Source: Pseudorhodoplanes sp. (GTDB lineage: Bacteria; Pseudomonadota; Alphaproteobacteria; Rhizobiales; Xanthobacteraceae). Taken from it: a stretch of 43,771 bases of DNA. The stretch lies in NCBI GenBank assembly GCA_022843165.1, contig JALHOD010000026.1:1-43771 (forward strand), written 5' to 3'. Positions 2,977 through 40,144 of this stretch are shown one piece after another. Under the pieces are notes generated by a model. It saw nothing but the letters and a program-made list of their open reading frames with translations, was not told where the DNA came from and did not search any database. The stretch's first letter is position 1; each line of letters starts with the position of its first letter. Both the position numbers and the translations under genes were made by a program.

Positions 2977-5418
2977 ATGCCGATTCGATTTTTTCCGCGC
3001 GAAGGAACCATCGCGCCGCTGCTGCTGGCGGCCCTGCTGATATGTGCGCCGGCCGCGATCGCCCAGTCGCCGGCGCCGCAATCCCCGCAGGCCCAGACCG
3101 CCCAGCCGGACACCGCCTCTCAGCTCGAAACCCAGAAGCTTCTGCTCGACCAGTTCGAGGCCACGCTGCAGCGTGAGAGCCTGACCGACGAGGCCCTCGT
3201 TCAGACGCGCGGCAGCCTCGAGCCGCTGCGCGGCGAATTGCGCGAAACCATCGAGACGCTGGACCGCCGGCTGGCCGACGTGGATGCGCGTCTCAAGCAG
3301 ATCGGCGATCCGCCCGCGGCCGGCGCCCAGCCGGAGGACGCCGCGCTCGCCTCCGAACGCACGCGGCTGGCCCAGCGCCGCGGCGTGCTGGACGGCGGCG
3401 TCAAGCAGGCGCGGCTCCTGATGCTGCGCGCCGACGATCTCGCCGAACGCATCACCGAGCGCCGCCGGGCGCTGTTCACCCGCGAATTGTTCGGACGCGC
3501 CTCGAGCGCGCTCGATCCCTCGTTCTGGATGCAGGCGGCGCGCGGAGTGCCGGACGACCTGCGCGCGCTCTCGTTCCTTGGGCGGTCGTGGTGGAATTAC
3601 GCCGCGTCCAATGGCGGTCTCGGCAGCATGGCGGCGGCCGCGCTCACGCTGCTGGCGCTCGGCGCCGTCGGGCTGATGGCCGGGCGCTGGCTGCGCCGCC
3701 ACGATTTCAGGCCGGCACTCAACGGCCGCTTCGGCAAATCCTTCCAGGCGTTGATGACGCTGCTGCGCATCGCGCTGGTCACGCCGGCCGTTGTCGCCAT
3801 CGCGATCCTGGTGCTAGACGGATTCGGGCTGGTGCCGCCGCGCATCATGGAAATGGCGCTCGGCCTGGTGATGGCGGTCGCGATGGCGTCGTTCGGACGC
3901 GGTGTGGCGGTCGGCCTGTTCGCGCCCGAAGAACCCGACCGGCGGCTGCTGGCGATCACCGACGAGACCGCCCGGCTGATCGCGCACACCCTGATCTGGG
4001 CGGCGCGCATTCTCGGCGTCGTGGTGTTCGTCACCGTGATCCAGCGCACCATCGTCGCGCAGGTGTCGCTCACGGTCGCGACCTCCGCCCTGTTCTCGGC
4101 GCTGATCGCGGCCCTGCTGGTCCGGTTCCTGTGCAAGGCCGGCCCGAGCAGCGCGCCCGACGACGATGTCAGTCAGGCGCAATGGCTGCGCGCGGCGGGC
4201 TGGCTGCTGGTGGCGGGCATCGTCATTTCGCTGGCGACCGGTTTCATCGCCTTCGCGGGTTTTCTGGCGGGGCGCTTCCTGGTCGCGCTCGGCGTCATCG
4301 GCGCGCTCTACGTGCTGCTGGTGTTCACCGACGCCCTGTTCACCGAGGTGCTGACCGCGAACACGCAGCGCGGCCGCGCGGTCGCCAGTTTCGTCGGGCT
4401 GAAGCCGCGCTCGGTCGAACTGTTCGGGACCTTGCTGTCGGCGGTGATCCGCCTGCTGCTGATCCTGGTGGTGCTGCTGCCGCTGCTTGGGCCGTGGGGC
4501 ATGTTCGCCGCCGACTTCTTCGGCGTGGTGCGCGAGGCCGCGCTCGGATTCCGCATCGGCGACGTCACCATCTCGGTCACGGCGATCCTGACCGCATTCG
4601 TCATCCTGCTGGTCGGCGTTCTGGCGACGCGCGGCGCGCAGGGCTGGCTCAATACGCGCTTCCTGCCGCGCACCACGCTGGAGCCGGGGCTGCAGAATTC
4701 CGTCTCCACCATCTTCGGCTATGTCGGCGTCATCATCGCGCTGGTGCTGGCGCTGGCGCAGCTCGGACTCGACTTCCAGAAAATCGCGATCGTGGCCGGC
4801 GCATTGTCGATCGGCATCGGCTTCGGCCTGCAGGCAGTGGTGTCGAATTTCATCTCCGGTCTGATCCTGCTGGCGGAACGGCCGATCCGCGTCGGCGACA
4901 TCATCAACGTCAAGGGTGAGGAAGGTCGCGTGCAGCGCATCCATGTGCGCGCGACCGAGATCGAGACCGGCGACAATGCCAGCGTCATCATCCCGAATTC
5001 CGAACTCATCACCGGCGTGGTGAAGAACTGGACCCATGCCAACACCTTCAGTCGCATCGTGGTGAAGGTCGGCGTCGGCTATGACAGTGACGTCGAGAAG
5101 GTGCGCGAGATCCTGCTGGAGATCGCGAAGGCCCATCCCAAGTTGATGCAGTCGCCGGCGCCGGTCGCCTTTCTCACCGGCTTCGGGGACAGCGCGATCA
5201 ATTTCGAGCTGGGCGGCGTTGTGCGCAATATCGGCGACGGCGCGAGCGTGAAGAGCGATCTCTATTTCTCCATTCTGGAGCGCTTCCGCGCCGAAGGTAT
5301 CGCGATCCCCTTTCCGCAGCGCGAGGTCAGCCTGCGCGGCGGTACCGATGCGCCGTCCGGCCCGGCGCCGGACAAGCCCAAGACCGGCAAGTCCCGCGCG
5401 GGAAAAGCCCGGTCCTGA
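2977..5418 (+). CDS. DUF3772 / MscS-family mechanosensitive channel
   Basis: An 813-residue inner-membrane protein. A signal peptide (1-29, ending AIAQ) leads a periplasmic, coiled-coil-like region (about 45-170) matching the DUF3772 N-terminus of large MscS proteins. About ten membrane segments follow (about 210-600). The MscS pore helix and beta domain come next: the Gly/Ala-rich helix IAIVAGALSIGIGFGLQAVV (about 600-620), then LAERPIRVGDIINVKGEEGRVQRI and VIIPNSELITGVVKNW, both family hallmarks. The C-terminal cytoplasmic vestibule ends in a basic Lys/Pro-rich tail. It would open under membrane tension in osmotic downshock; the long family members often have additional, unknown ligands. 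AGGGAG precedes the ATG. The CAP-domain gene begins 68 bases downstream, probably in one transcript. Confidence 0.93.
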   Translation: MPIRFFPREGTIAPLLLAALLICAPAAIAQSPAPQSPQAQTAQPDTASQLETQKLLLDQFEATLQRESLTDEALVQTRGSLEPLRGELRETIETLDRRLADVDARLKQIGDPPAAGAQPEDAALASERTRLAQRRGVLDGGVKQARLLMLRADDLAERITERRRALFTRELFGRASSALDPSFWMQAARGVPDDLRALSFLGRSWWNYAASNGGLGSMAAAALTLLALGAVGLMAGRWLRRHDFRPALNGRFGKSFQALMTLLRIALVTPAVVAIAILVLDGFGLVPPRIMEMALGLVMAVAMASFGRGVAVGLFAPEEPDRRLLAITDETARLIAHTLIWAARILGVVVFVTVIQRTIVAQVSLTVATSALFSALIAALLVRFLCKAGPSSAPDDDVSQAQWLRAAGWLLVAGIVISLATGFIAFAGFLAGRFLVALGVIGALYVLLVFTDALFTEVLTANTQRGRAVASFVGLKPRSVELFGTLLSAVIRLLLILVVLLPLLGPWGMFAADFFGVVREAALGFRIGDVTISVTAILTAFVILLVGVLATRGAQGWLNTRFLPRTTLEPGLQNSVSTIFGYVGVIIALVLALAQLGLDFQKIAIVAGALSIGIGFGLQAVVSNFISGLILLAERPIRVGDIINVKGEEGRVQRIHVRATEIETGDNASVIIPNSELITGVVKNWTHANTFSRIVVKVGVGYDSDVEKVREILLEIAKAHPKLMQSPAPVAFLTGFGDSAINFELGGVVRNIGDGASVKSDLYFSILERFRAEGIAIPFPQREVSLRGGTDAPSGPAPDKPKTGKSRAGKARS

Positions 5419-35095: not shown

Positions 35096-36235
35096 TCACT
35101 CCCAGTTCAGCGCGCCGCCGTTCTGGTATTCGATCACACGGGTCTCGAAGAAGTTTTTCTCCTTCTTCAGGTCCATCACCTCCGACATCCACGGAAACGG
35201 ATTTTCCGCGTCCTTGAACACCGGCACGAGACCGAGCTGCGCGCAGCGCCGGTTGGCGATGAAGTGCATGTATTGCTCGCACAGGGCCGCGTTCAGGCCG
35301 AGGAAGCCCCGCGGCATTGTATCGCGGCCATAGGCGGCCTCGAGCTCCGCGGCCTCCACGATCATCTGCCGGATTTCGTCCTGGAACGTCCGGCTCCAAA
35401 GATGCGGATTCTCAATCTTGATCTGGTTGATGACATCGATGCCGAAGTTCAGATGGATCGATTCATCACGCAGGATGTACTGATACTGCTCGGCGATGCC
35501 GACCATCTTGTTGCGGCGGCCGAGCGAGAGGATTTGCGCGAAGCCGGTATAGAACCACATCCCCTCGAAGATCACGTAAAAGGCGACGAGATCGCGCAGG
35601 AAGGCGCGGTCGGCCTCCGGCGTGCCGGTCCTGAAATCCGGGTCGTCGAGATTTTGCGTATACTTCAGCGCCCAGGCCGCCTTGTCGGTGATCGAGGGCA
35701 CTTCGCGATACATGTTGAACAATTCGCCCTCGTCGAGGCCGAGGCTCTCCACGATGTACTGGAAGGTGTGAGTGTGCACGGCCTCCTCGAAGGCCTGCCG
35801 CAGCAAATACTGCCGGCATTCCGGGTTGGTCAGGTGGCGGTAGATTGCCAGCACGATGTTGTTGGCGACCAAAGACTCCGAGGCGGCAAAAAATCCCAGA
35901 TTTCGCTTGATCGAACGCCGCTCGTCCTCGCTCAGGCCGTCGCGCGACTTCCACAACGCGATATCGGCCTGCATCGATACCTCGGTTGGCATCCAGTGGT
36001 TGTTGCAGCCGGCAAGATATTTTTCCCAGGCCCAGCGGTACTTCAGCGGCAGCAACTGGTTGACGTCGGCGCGCGAATTGATCATCGCCTTCTCATCGAC
36101 GCTCACGCGTCCGCCGCCGCGTTCGATCATGCCGAGGCCGGTGGCATCGGTCTTGCGCGCGGGCTGTTCGCTGAAGACGGGATGAATCGCGGCCATGGCT
36201 TTTTGCGTCGCGGAAAGTTCTGACCAGTCGAGCAT
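35096..36235 (-). CDS. nrdB: Ribonucleotide reductase small subunit NrdB, class Ic-like (Phe at radical Tyr site)
   Basis: A 379-residue ferritin-like R2 protein. The metal ligands are Glu120 (FFAASES), Glu151 and His154 ([10 protein letters not shown]), Glu224 (VIFEG), and Glu258 and His261 ([10 protein letters not shown]). Position 158, which aligns with radical Tyr122 of E. coli NrdB, is phenylalanine. The motif EEAVHTHTF is the one found in Chlamydia trachomatis R2, which uses a Mn(IV)/Fe(III) cofactor in place of a tyrosyl radical. The whole protein resembles the chlamydial form, including [18 protein letters not shown] and [27 protein letters not shown]; Tyr370 should be the C-terminal relay tyrosine. 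The metal is inferred. It follows nrdA by 33 bases in one operon. Confidence 0.96.
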
Positions 36236-36268: not shown

Positions 36269-39115
36269 CTACTGGCACGCCTCGCAGGCCGGATCGTCGA
36301 TCGCGCAAGCATTCGGGATCGCGATCGGCTCCACAATGACCGCGTTGAGCTTGCCGTCGATGCCTTTCAGCGTGGATTTCTCGACATGGGTCGCGCTCTG
36401 CGATCGCAGGTAATAGGTCGTCTTCAGGCCGCGCTTCCAGGCGAGTTGATAGAGTGCGTCAAGCTTCCGCCCGTTCGGTTGCGCGATATAGAGATTGAGC
36501 GACTGTGCCTGATCGATCCATTTCTGCCGGCGTGAGGCCGCCTCGATCAACCATGTCGAATCGATCTCGAATGCGGTGGCATACAACGCCTTCAGATGCT
36601 CTGGCACGCGGTCGATCAAGCCCAGGCTGCCGTCAAAATATTTCAGGTCGGCGACCATCACCTCGTCCCACAGGCCGAGCGCCTTCAGGTCGCGGACCAG
36701 ATGCGGATTCACCACGGTGAAGTCACCCGACATGTTCGCCTTCACGTAGAGATTACGGTAGGCGGGCTCGATCGACTGCGCGACGCCGCAGATATTGGAG
36801 ATGGTCGCGGTCGGCGCAATCGCCATCACGTTGGAATTACGCATGCCGTTCGCGACCACACGCTGGCGCAAGGACGTCCAGTCAAATTGCGAAGACGTGT
36901 CCATGTCGAGGTCGCCGCCGCGCGCATCGGCCAGAAGCCGGATGGAATCGAGCGGCAGAATGCCATGGCTCCAGAGCGAGCCTTCGAACGAGGGATAGCG
37001 GCCGCGCTCGAGTGCGAGTTCGGACGAGGCGGAAATCGCGTGAAAGCTGATCGCCTCCATGCTTTCGTCGGCGAAGGTGACGGCCTTTTCGGACGCGAGC
37101 GGAATTCGCAGCATGTGCAGCGCATCCTGGAACCCCATCAGGCCGAGCCCGACCGGCCGATGCCGCAGGTTTGAGCGCCGCGCTTCCGGAATGGTGTAGA
37201 AATTCACGTCGATCACGTTGTCCAGCATGCGCATGGCAACGCGCACGGTGAAGGCGAGCCGCTCGCCGTCGAGGCCTTTTTCGGTGACGTGATTGGCGAG
37301 GTTGATGGACCCCAGATTGCAGACCGCGACCTCGTCGTTCGAGGTATTGAGCGTGATTTCGGTGCATAGGTTGGAGGAATGCACCACGCCGCAATGGCTC
37401 TGCGGCGAGCGCAGGTTGCAGGGGTCCTTGAAGGTGATCCAGGGATGCCCGGTCTCGAACAGCATGGTGAGCATGCGCCGCCAGAGATCGACCGCCCGCA
37501 GTTGCTTGAACACGCGGATTTCGCCGCGTTTGGTCTGTTCTTCATAGGCCTGATAGCGCTCTGCAAAGGCGTGGCCATAGAGATCGTGCAGGTCCGGCGT
37601 CTCGTCGGGCGAGAACAATGTCCATGGGCCGTTGGCCGCGACCCGCTGCATGAAAAGGTCTGGCACCCAGTTAGCGGTGTTCATGTCGTGGGTGCGGCGA
37701 CGGTCGTCGCCGGTATTCTTGCGCAGATCGAGGAATTCCTCGATATCGATATGCCATGTCTCCAGATAGCCGCAGACCGCGCCCTTGCGCTTGCCGCCCT
37801 GATTGACCGCGATGGCGGTATCGTTGGCGACTTTCAAAAACGGCACCACGCCTTGCGATTCGCCGTTGGTGCCCTTGATATGCGCGCCGAGCCCGCGCAC
37901 CCGCGTCCAGTCGTTGCCGAGCCCGCCGGCATATTTCGACAGCAGCGCATTGTCCTTGATCGACTTGAAGATGCCGTCGAGATCGTCCGGCACGGTGGTC
38001 AGGAAGCAGGACGAGAGCTGCGGACGTTGCGTGCCGGCATTGAACAGGGTCGGCGTCGAGCACATGAAGTCGAGGGAGGAGAGCAGATTGTAGAATTCGA
38101 TGGCCCGGGTTTCGCGATCGATCTCGCGGATCGCGAGGCCCATCGCAACGCGCATGAAGAAAGCCTGCGGCAGTTCGAACCGCGTACCCTCGCTGTGCAG
38201 AAGATAGCGGTCGTAGAGCGTCTGCAATCCGAGGAACTGGAAGAGATTGTCGCGCTCCGGCTTCAACGCGGCGGCAAGACGGGCGAGATCGAAGCGGGCG
38301 AACTCGGGATCGAGCAGATCGAGCACAATGCCTCGCTTGATGTAATTCGGAAAATAATTGGCATAGGCGCCCGCGAGATCGGTATTCTCTATCGATCCCT
38401 GCACAAAGCTGAGCGCCTCATCGGCGAGCATGGCAAGCAGCAAGCGCGCACTGACATAGGCGTAATTCGGGTCGGCCTCGATCAACACCCGCGCTGCCAT
38501 GATCCTGGCGAGCGAGAGCTCCTGCGCGCTGATGCCGTCGAAAATGTTACGGTTCAGTTCGGCAAGAATCGGCTCGGGCGAAGTGCCATCCAGTCCCTCG
38601 CAGGCCGCGGCGATCGAGCGCGTCAGCGCGGCCTGGTCGATCGGCTGCCGCGCGCCGTTCGGTGCTAGAACATGCAGCGCCGGCGTCGCCGCCATTTCCG
38701 CCTTGGCGTCGCGGCGCGCCCGCGCCCGCTCCTCGCGATAGAGCACATAAGCGCGCGCCACCTTGTGATGCTCACCGCGCATCAGCGCGACTTCGACGCG
38801 ATCCTGCACATCTTCGATATGCAGGGTGCGGCCGGTCTCGGCGCGGCGCGTGAGCGAGGCCACTACTTCTTCGGTCAGTTGCTCCACTGCCTCATGCACC
38901 CGGCGCGACGCCACCGCGGAATTGCCTTCCACCGCCAGGAACGCCTTGGTCATTGCGACCGCGATCTTGCTTCTGTCGAACGGCGACACCGACCCGTTGC
39001 GGCGGATCACCTGAAAGCCCGGCGCAGCCGGCGTCGCGATTGGCGCAGGTACCGTTGCAAGACCCGGATGCAATGCAACAAGGCTGGAGAGTGTGGTGTC
39101 GGCGGAGAGCGGCAT
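36269..39115 (-). CDS. nrdA: Ribonucleotide reductase large subunit NrdA with two ATP-cones
   Basis: A 948-residue class I R1 protein. Two ATP-cone domains occupy the N-terminus (about 34-125 from VIRRNGSVSPFDRSKI, and about 148-235 from VLAPNGARQPIDQAAL). The barrel has the redox pair Cys370 (SSCFL) and Cys599 (VCNLG), and the active-site triple Asn582-x-Cys584-x-Glu586 (NLCTE). PTATISNICGV is the conserved phosphate-binding loop. The C-terminal shuttle cysteines are Cys944 and Cys947 (CEAC). It reduces ribonucleoside diphosphates with NrdB; the ATP-cones set overall activity by ATP and dATP. The extra cone parallels chlamydial NrdA. The start ATG (39115) is preceded by AAGGG, itself inside a hairpin, and by a cobalamin riboswitch. 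Confidence 0.97.
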   Translation of the reverse strand: MPLSADTTLSSLVALHPGLATVPAPIATPAAPGFQVIRRNGSVSPFDRSKIAVAMTKAFLAVEGNSAVASRRVHEAVEQLTEEVVASLTRRAETGRTLHIEDVQDRVEVALMRGEHHKVARAYVLYREERARARRDAKAEMAATPALHVLAPNGARQPIDQAALTRSIAAACEGLDGTSPEPILAELNRNIFDGISAQELSLARIMAARVLIEADPNYAYVSARLLLAMLADEALSFVQGSIENTDLAGAYANYFPNYIKRGIVLDLLDPEFARFDLARLAAALKPERDNLFQFLGLQTLYDRYLLHSEGTRFELPQAFFMRVAMGLAIREIDRETRAIEFYNLLSSLDFMCSTPTLFNAGTQRPQLSSCFLTTVPDDLDGIFKSIKDNALLSKYAGGLGNDWTRVRGLGAHIKGTNGESQGVVPFLKVANDTAIAVNQGGKRKGAVCGYLETWHIDIEEFLDLRKNTGDDRRRTHDMNTANWVPDLFMQRVAANGPWTLFSPDETPDLHDLYGHAFAERYQAYEEQTKRGEIRVFKQLRAVDLWRRMLTMLFETGHPWITFKDPCNLRSPQSHCGVVHSSNLCTEITLNTSNDEVAVCNLGSINLANHVTEKGLDGERLAFTVRVAMRMLDNVIDVNFYTIPEARRSNLRHRPVGLGLMGFQDALHMLRIPLASEKAVTFADESMEAISFHAISASSELALERGRYPSFEGSLWSHGILPLDSIRLLADARGGDLDMDTSSQFDWTSLRQRVVANGMRNSNVMAIAPTATISNICGVAQSIEPAYRNLYVKANMSGDFTVVNPHLVRDLKALGLWDEVMVADLKYFDGSLGLIDRVPEHLKALYATAFEIDSTWLIEAASRRQKWIDQAQSLNLYIAQPNGRKLDALYQLAWKRGLKTTYYLRSQSATHVEKSTLKGIDGKLNAVIVEPIAIPNACAIDDPACEACQ

Positions 39116-39119
39116 GTGG

Positions 39120-39148
39120 CAGACCCTTATATGTCGCGTGCGGGTCTG
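39120..39148 (-). promoter_or_regulatory. Hairpin covering the nrdA Shine-Dalgarno, expression platform
   Basis: On the minus strand CAGACCC (39148-39142) and GGGTCTG (39126-39120) pair perfectly over 7 bp with a 15-base loop. The 3' arm includes GGG of AAGGG, the only ribosome-binding sequence before the nrdA ATG (39115). If this stem forms, the start site is blocked. Placed directly after the cobalamin aptamer, it looks like the off-state of a translational riboswitch. A second stem (CCGAT-CACG with CGTGATCGG, one bulge) lies between aptamer and hairpin. Confidence 0.6.
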
Positions 39149-39219
39149 GCAGAGGCGCGCGGCCGATCACGTGCAGGCGTGCATCGGCATGCGGCCTCCG
39201 GTGCACCCCGCCCGAGGAC

Positions 39220-39415
39220 GTGTCATCAATGTCACGGCAGTTCTTCTGGCTCGCGGGTCGTCATAGCACCGTCAGCCTTCCCGACCTCGTACGCGCGAGG
39301 GCAGTGACTCGATCGACGATGCAATTCGCCGCTTACAGTTGCGGGGGCAGCCCCGGCCTTGTTTTCAGGCATATAGCCTTACTCACGCACCGGATTCTCT
39401 CTTAGCCCCGGATCT
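39220..39415 (-). ncRNA. Cobalamin (B12) riboswitch aptamer upstream of nrdA
   Basis: Read on the minus strand, all core elements occur in order: GAATCCGGTGCG (about 39397-39386), GCTGCCCCCGCAACTGTAAGCGG (about 39351-39329), CACTG (39306-39302), GGGAAGGC (about 39282-39275), and the B12 box ACCCGCGAGCCAGAAGAACTGCC (about 39258-39236). This is the classical AdoCbl-type aptamer. It lies about 100 bases upstream of nrdA and in its direction. Binding of cobalamin should lower nrdAB expression. The rest of the 424-base gap (39116-39539) holds the expression platform and, at 39416-39539, presumably the promoter, which I cannot place exactly. Confidence 0.95.
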
Positions 39416-39539
39416 TGCGATTCCGGAGACCGTAACATCTACATTTGGGAGTGAGTCGGAGACGGCGGTCAATGACGTGCGAACGCGCTAACCGCGCAAA
39501 ACAGCTAATGACCAAAAAAATTTGCACTGTCGCCGTAAT

Positions 39540-40121
39540 TCACGGCTCCAGTTCGGTATCCCAATAGAGATAGTCCATCCAGCTTTCGTGCAGATAGTTC
39601 GGCGGAAACAGCCGGCCGTTGCGGTGCAGATGCTGGACGGTGGGCTGGAACGGAAGCTGCGAGGGATGCATCCCGGCTTCCGCCGGCGTGAGGCTGCCCT
39701 TGCGCAGGTTGCACGGCGAGCAGGCGGCAATCACGTTGTCCCAGGTGGTGTGCCCGCCGCGCGAGCGCGGGATCAGGTGATCGAAGGTGAGATCGTCCTC
39801 TGCGCCGCAATACTGGCACAAAAACTTGTCGCGAAGGAACACGTTGAACCGCGTGAAGGCGGGGTGTGTCGCGGGCTTCACATAGGTCTTGAGCGACACC
39901 ACGCTCGGCAGCTTCATCTCGAAGCTCGGCGAATGCACCGCGCGCTCGTAATTGGCGACGATATTCACGCGCTCGAGAAACACCGCCTTGATGGCGTCCT
40001 GCCAGGACCAGAGCGACAAGGGGTAATAGCTCAAGGGACGAAAATCCGCGTTGAGCACAAGAGCCGGAAAGCCGGTCGGCGACACGTGAACGTTCAAGCA
40101 AGGCGCTCCTTGAAGAGCCAT
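39540..40121 (-). CDS. HNH endonuclease family protein
   Basis: About 193 residues. The HNH/zinc-finger domain is near the C-terminal half: FLCQYCGAEDDLTFDHLIPRSRGGHTTWDNVIAACSPCNLRKGSLTP. It has two CxxC zinc pairs (CQYC, CSPC), the DH catalytic histidine and the asparagine of WDNV. The N-terminal part (FPALVLNADFRPLSYYPLSLWSWQDAIKAVFLERVNIV) is shared by a large conserved bacterial family whose members are not tied to phage or restriction; the role is unknown, perhaps DNA repair. The ATG at 40121 (or TTG at 40124) is possible. AAGGAG before a TTG at 40097 makes MNVHVSPTGF a good alternative start. A promoter is proposed at 40145-40173. Confidence 0.9.
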   Translation of the reverse strand: MALQGAPCLNVHVSPTGFPALVLNADFRPLSYYPLSLWSWQDAIKAVFLERVNIVANYERAVHSPSFEMKLPSVVSLKTYVKPATHPAFTRFNVFLRDKFLCQYCGAEDDLTFDHLIPRSRGGHTTWDNVIAACSPCNLRKGSLTPAEAGMHPSQLPFQPTVQHLHRNGRLFPPNYLHESWMDYLYWDTELEP

Positions 40122-40144
40122 CAACCTGAAACAACTGCACCCAA

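Follow-up and report, generated by a model that had tools for sequence, protein, structure and literature searches.

A cobalamin riboswitch ahead of a class Ic-like ribonucleotide reductase operon in Pseudorhodoplanes sp. and its relatives

The class I ribonucleotide reductase (RNR) operon nrdAB of Pseudorhodoplanes sp. is preceded by a cobalamin riboswitch, which most likely turns the operon OFF with adenosylcobalamin (AdoCbl), so that NrdAB would serve as a fallback when the B12-dependent reductase NrdJ lacks its cofactor. The observed basis of this reading comprises the aptamer, both halves of its kissing loop, the gene order, an NrdJ elsewhere in the genome, a Phe at the radical site of the R2 subunit and conservation in relatives. 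The window, i.e. the whole stretch of DNA analysed (43,771 nt), carries the following features:

39449..39219, minus strand: cobalamin riboswitch aptamer, full-length match to RF00174 (101.8 bits)
39346-39341, minus strand: L5 half of the kissing loop, CCCCGC, read from the sequence
39236..39250, minus strand: B12 box in a variant form, GCCAGAAGAACTGCC, read from the sequence
39195..39217, minus strand: P13-L13 region directly after the aptamer, with L13 GCGGGG at 39211-39206
39120..39148, minus strand: hairpin CAGACCC/GGGTCTG, predicted to cover the ribosome site of nrdA, with its end 4 nt short of the ATG
36269..39115, minus strand: nrdA, class I RNR large subunit, 948 aa (NF005544, 1657.8 bits)
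35096..36235, minus strand: nrdB, R2 subunit, 379 aa, with Phe158 at the radical position (NF005550, 675.8 bits)

When the whole window was searched with cmscan, the element matched RF00174 over model positions 1–189 of 189 with an E value of 1.7e-24, its score standing against a gathering threshold of 31.5 bits; the match is to the general cobalamin model and thus at a level above the class I (AdoCbl) and class II subtypes. The original prediction, which had placed an AdoCbl aptamer on the minus strand upstream of nrdA and proposed a covariance search as a check, is borne out by this score, far over the threshold. The span given there, 39220-39415, was right at its 3' end but 34 nt short at its 5' end, so that the outer stems lost their 5' strands. 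The start of nrdA (39115) lies 103 nt downstream of the aptamer on the same strand, and the next upstream gene among those examined, also on this strand, encodes an HNH protein (39540-40124). L5 and the complementary L13 downstream are both present, the kissing-loop role of L13 being assigned by analogy with the system treated in passages of PMC9600662. GCGGGGT (L13) follows the aptamer in 35/35 leaders of the family Xanthobacteraceae, 33 of which carry an exact copy of the wider L5 motif GCCCCCGC.

The element resembles the Rfam cobalamin riboswitch in its full-length match, B12 box, L5 and L13, but differs in two places of the usual aptamer core, the B12 box and its P3 partner. The box reads GCCAGAAGAACTGCC where the usual form is GCCAGGAGACCTGCC, and P3 carries a matching change; with GAAGAAC for GGAGACC in the box and GAGAGAA for GAGGGAA on the P3-partner side, there are three changes in all. 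Apart from copies of the window, the same B12-box variant was found among 162 fetched loci only in L019 (5323-5337, minus strand), which scores 114.4 bits with RF00174 and whose NrdA is not a neighbour of the window's in the tree. Judged from these changes, the response to the ligand is possibly altered.

NrdA contains an ATP-cone (in two stretches), the RNR N domain and the class I barrel according to Pfam. In NrdB, Phe158 sits where radical-bearing R2 proteins have Tyr. The solved structures closest to NrdB are 6y2n (691 bits) and 1syy, 4d8f and 2ani (448–449 bits, with 1syy at 449), the last three of which we take to be chlamydial R2 proteins; the next match has 148 bits. In the motifs WxPTE, FEEAVH, EG and RDExIH, NrdB aligns with 1syy with unchanged residues at the presumed dimetal ligand positions. 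At the sequence level NrdB is a class Ic-like R2 (Phe158; 449 bits to 1syy), in line with the original prediction, and the cofactor of NrdAB is probably Mn/Fe; a Phe at the radical position alone is also compatible with a Mn2 centre (class Id). NrdB shares a Phe at the radical-Tyr position of the aligned stretch with the class Ic R2 (1syy) and with 6y2n, the R2 of Saccharopolyspora erythraea (PMC7467353); the likeness is one of sequence, and the passages on 6y2n in that paper name no subclass.

The source assembly (3.87 Mb, 96% complete) encodes two large RNR chains, the NrdA of the window and a B12-dependent NrdJ. The latter, whose presence in the same genome had been set as another check, is located on contig C29 (G000:C29), where it is truncated by the contig end, and scores 2221 bits with NF005736. 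RF00174 has two matches in the 3.87-Mb genome, the window element and one on contig C13 before a TonB receptor gene. MetH is present, a full-length MetE was not found in the genome (best match 104 bits vs a cut-off of 930), and neither CobN (PF02514) nor CbiC had a match in this 96% complete assembly. Based on these gene contents and the riboswitch before the TonB receptor gene, the organism is probably a B12 scavenger possessing both a B12-dependent and a B12-free RNR.

Among 119 Xanthobacteraceae genomes, NrdB was matched in 36, comprising 26 matches over the cut-off (the window operon included), 9 weaker ones of more than 300 residues and one 40-residue fragment. Besides the window, Rfam was run on all 35 other loci of these genomes. 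A same-strand riboswitch precedes nrdA in 26/26 operons of the window's type, all with Phe at the radical site, and in 9/9 operons of a second, weaker-matching class I RNR, in one of which (L049) the riboswitch match is weak (40.6 bits). The second type, named by NCBIfam in 2 of the 9 loci as PRK09102 (NrdA) and PRK09614.1-5 (NrdB), has Tyr at the radical site in 9/9 cases, its NrdB being 27% identical to that of the window in L047, and occurs also in the window's own genus (G217). A gene swap behind a resident riboswitch is left undecided by the leader tree, where the second-type leaders are unresolved among the first-type ones. The NrdJ model was matched in 148/150 genomes of the order and over the cut-off in 136/150, the stricter figure, as NrdA can weakly match this model.

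The 40-residue NrdB piece (L050, about 4004-4123, genome G188) shares 70% identity with the NrdB of the window; its locus has no riboswitch match, and it is likely the remnant of a lost operon. The idea that retention of nrdAB is mainly a trait of genomes unable to synthesize B12 was rejected: CbiC was present in 10/35 nrdAB-plus genomes vs 38/84 others (Fisher p 0.10), a statistic that ignores kinship and counts the G188 fragment genome among the 84. CobN (PF02514) was left out of this comparison because its family also holds Mg-chelatase.

Beyond the family, a scan of named genomes confirmed 581 NrdA loci, of which the best 80 were searched with a profile HMM built from the window-family elements (all 80) and with Rfam (21). 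The element precedes nrdA in 24 of these 80, namely in 18 Rhizobiales kin and 6 Actinobacteria. One of the 18 (L066) comes from a MAG that bears the label Acidobacteria; its NrdA falls together with that of the Rhizobiales-family genome G240, owing to either mislabelling or transfer. The searches found no element in front of nrdA in 5 Amycolatopsis and Arboricoccus, nor in the remaining 50 of the best 80 loci; absence in these 50 rests on the family-built profile HMM, with Rfam backing for 9, and means little for L092, L114 and L115, which have less than 500 nt before nrdA. An NrdA tree built by a quick method from these best 80 of 581 and the family loci, which overlap (106 rows, with L018 identical to L054 and L038 to L069), contains one clade of Rhizobiales and Actinobacteria (SH-aLRT 100) with 56 rows, 56/56 of Phe type and 50/56 riboswitch-preceded. 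In the other 50 rows the element was found in none; they include 46 of Tyr type, 2 of Phe type (Guyparkeria and Larsenimonas) and 2 unread (L073 and L086). The association is thereby seen throughout most of one Phe-type clade, instead of in the few bacteria in which it had been said to be known.

NrdJ was searched for in 40 of the 80 genomes. It exceeded the cut-off in 20/24 riboswitch-plus named genomes, the others being two MAGs (L056 and L068), a Rhizobiales isolate (L064) and Saccharothrix obliqua (L090). Either NrdJ escaped detection in these four or their riboswitch has some other function, in which case the fallback reading would need revision there. Since NrdJ was also present in 7/8 Phe-type genomes lacking the element and in 5/8 of the Tyr-type genomes examined, NrdJ alone does not predict the riboswitch.

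Streptomyces had been offered as an example of such control. Going by the title of Borovok 2006, a B12 riboswitch reportedly controls nrdABS transcription in Streptomyces, which would resemble the present case in having the switch on a class I RNR operon with NrdJ also present. In the genus of Streptomyces nanshensis, the usual R2 is of a different, Tyr type. R2 was matched there in 31/31 genomes; in the 30 loci read (S. coelicolor not identified among them), 29 R2 proteins are of Tyr type, with about 32–35% identity to the window's, these 29 loci being read for their R2 only. The only one of Phe type, that of S. nanshensis itself (L082), is 81% identical to the window's NrdB, which suggests horizontal transfer of nrdAB.

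Other B12-independent isozymes lie close to nrdAB. In 8 family loci (L016, L017, L019, L024, L025, L028, L030 and L037), a riboswitch-preceded metE is divergent from nrdAB, and in 5 of these (L016, L019, L024, L025 and L030; Pfam checked on L024) queH, encoding a B12-independent epoxyqueuosine reductase, is situated in between. No riboswitch was found directly before queH in these five. Placed side by side, metE, queH and nrdAB form islands of B12-independent isozymes with riboswitches before metE and nrdA. NrdD was matched in 5 loci searched, with a riboswitch directly before nrdD in 4 (L018, L054, L065 and L091, the first two representing one genome); in the fifth, L066, none was seen. In L018 (263-3449, plus strand), riboswitch-preceded nrdDG is directly upstream of riboswitch-nrdAB, and the nrdD leader groups with nrdA leaders in the leader tree (97/99), suggesting that this riboswitch was duplicated locally.

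The hairpin over the nrdA ribosome site is part of the minimum-energy fold of the window leader (z -2.7) and, taken alone, has a shuffle p of 0.047. Summed over leaders, the score for a hairpin between the G-run at the nrdA start and an upstream C-run gave z +4.4 (35 leaders) and +4.5 (26 leaders), compared with -5.4 at 26 nrdB starts; in single-leader tests, it was significant in 6/35. Within 20 nt of the nrdA start, GGGG occurs in 31/35 cases; an ordinary Shine-Dalgarno (SD) motif is found at 1/35 of these starts, compared with 21/26 for nrdB, where GGGG occurs in 0/26. RNAalifold, applied to 23 of the 35 leaders, gave 3 pairs with no compensatory change. Neither a minus-strand terminator-like site nor a sigma-70-like promoter was found in 39000-39700, and no NrdR box was matched in the whole window with up to 3 mismatches allowed. 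From the hairpin at nrdA but not nrdB starts, the GGGG in place of SD and the lack of a terminator-like site, we infer that control would be exerted on translation.

The mechanism that we favour would operate as follows. With AdoCbl present, NrdJ would be active and supply deoxynucleotides; the aptamer would fold, L5 would kiss L13 just downstream, and the hairpin over the nrdA ribosome site would block translation of NrdAB. With AdoCbl absent, NrdJ would be left without its cofactor and L13 would be freed, which may then compete for the 5' arm of the hairpin. Synthesis of NrdAB would then provide a fallback that needs oxygen but no cobalt and that probably uses a Mn/Fe cofactor. The OFF direction is suggested by NrdJ and the second riboswitch in the genome, by conservation in the family and the clade, and by the riboswitch-preceded metE and nrdD; together with ligand binding, the competition of L13 and the metals, it is what we infer in addition to the translational level. 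The competition is the most speculative step. In the window the 5' arm contains CCCGC, which is able to pair with L13; a fold in which they do so is predicted to lie 6.3 kcal/mol higher than the minimum and 4.6 lower than the one keeping L13 unpaired. Across 34 leaders the nrdA G-run is predicted to be paired either way, with a mean unpaired probability of 0.04 with L13 held and 0.11 with L13 free.

The same riboswitch might instead act on transcription, e.g. by Rho-dependent termination, and be OFF with AdoCbl as well. The title of Borovok 2006 speaks of transcription control, and isolated leader folds (n 34) show no ON state. This version is nonetheless unlikely in our view, since no minus-strand terminator-like site was found in 39000-39700 and the hairpin, not present at nrdB starts, covers the ribosome site of nrdA. 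Far more doubtful is control through a short upstream frame (MPMHACT, 39190-39167, minus strand) whose translation would govern nrdA. A GGAGG of its own, located within the 3' side of P13, precedes the ATG by 4 nt, and uORFs are tied to B12 riboswitches in another bacterium in the passages concerned of PMC11260477; the ATG frame, however, is absent from the 34 other leaders, where no conserved peptide could be recognized by eye, and it was set aside.

The window element could also be a decaying aptamer that binds poorly and leaves nrdAB constitutive, as 32 of the 34 family nrdA-linked elements score higher, at 109.9–139.1 bits, and the B12 box and P3 partner carry three changes. However, L019, which does not neighbour the window in the NrdA tree, has these same changes in a higher-scoring element, and the window has kept aptamer, L5, L13 and hairpin at 70 bits over the gathering threshold; we consider decay improbable, and a functional OFF switch acting on nrdAB translation remains the preferred reading.

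B12 control of B12-independent RNRs is already known; what is added here is the class Ic-like partner and the consistency of the association. The passages concerned of PMC545781 describe B12-elements before nrdDG where NrdJ is present and propose repression by B12, as seen before in other genomes. These delta-proteobacterial elements are like the present one in preceding an RNR that needs no B12 and for which repression is proposed in the presence of B12 and NrdJ, but the enzyme there is an anaerobic class III RNR, whereas here it is an oxygen-dependent class I RNR, judged to be Ic-like. In the parts consulted, PMC8620254 includes nrdD among genes with cobalamin riboswitches, and PMC8079986 places RF00174 elements of S. 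lividans at cobalt/cobalamin genes, with no mention of nrdAB. In the literature searched, outside which the key 2003–2006 papers fell, no class Ic-like RNR was found described as controlled by a B12 riboswitch; Rhizobiales nrdAB may have been listed earlier in Rodionov 2003, Borovok 2006, Vitreschak 2003 or Nahvi 2004.

On balance, we lean towards a wider view in which a clade of Phe-type (class Ic-like) NrdAB in Rhizobiales and Actinobacteria is tied to AdoCbl by the riboswitch, with B12 choosing between the cobalt chemistry of NrdJ and the Mn/Fe chemistry of NrdAB, and in which the switch behaves in Rhizobiales as a module put in front of several kinds of enzymes that spare B12, namely metE, nrdDG and class I RNRs of two unrelated types. 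The switch between Mn/Fe and B12 chemistry is a prediction from sequence. With NrdJ in 136/150 genomes of the order, DNA synthesis may require B12 wherever a backup is missing, and each class I backup examined in the family (35/35 operons) is behind a B12 switch. The proposed control offers a testable account of how these bacteria meet B12 or cobalt shortage and would link B12 supply to the demand for manganese and iron. The leader could also serve as an AdoCbl reporter in Rhizobiales.
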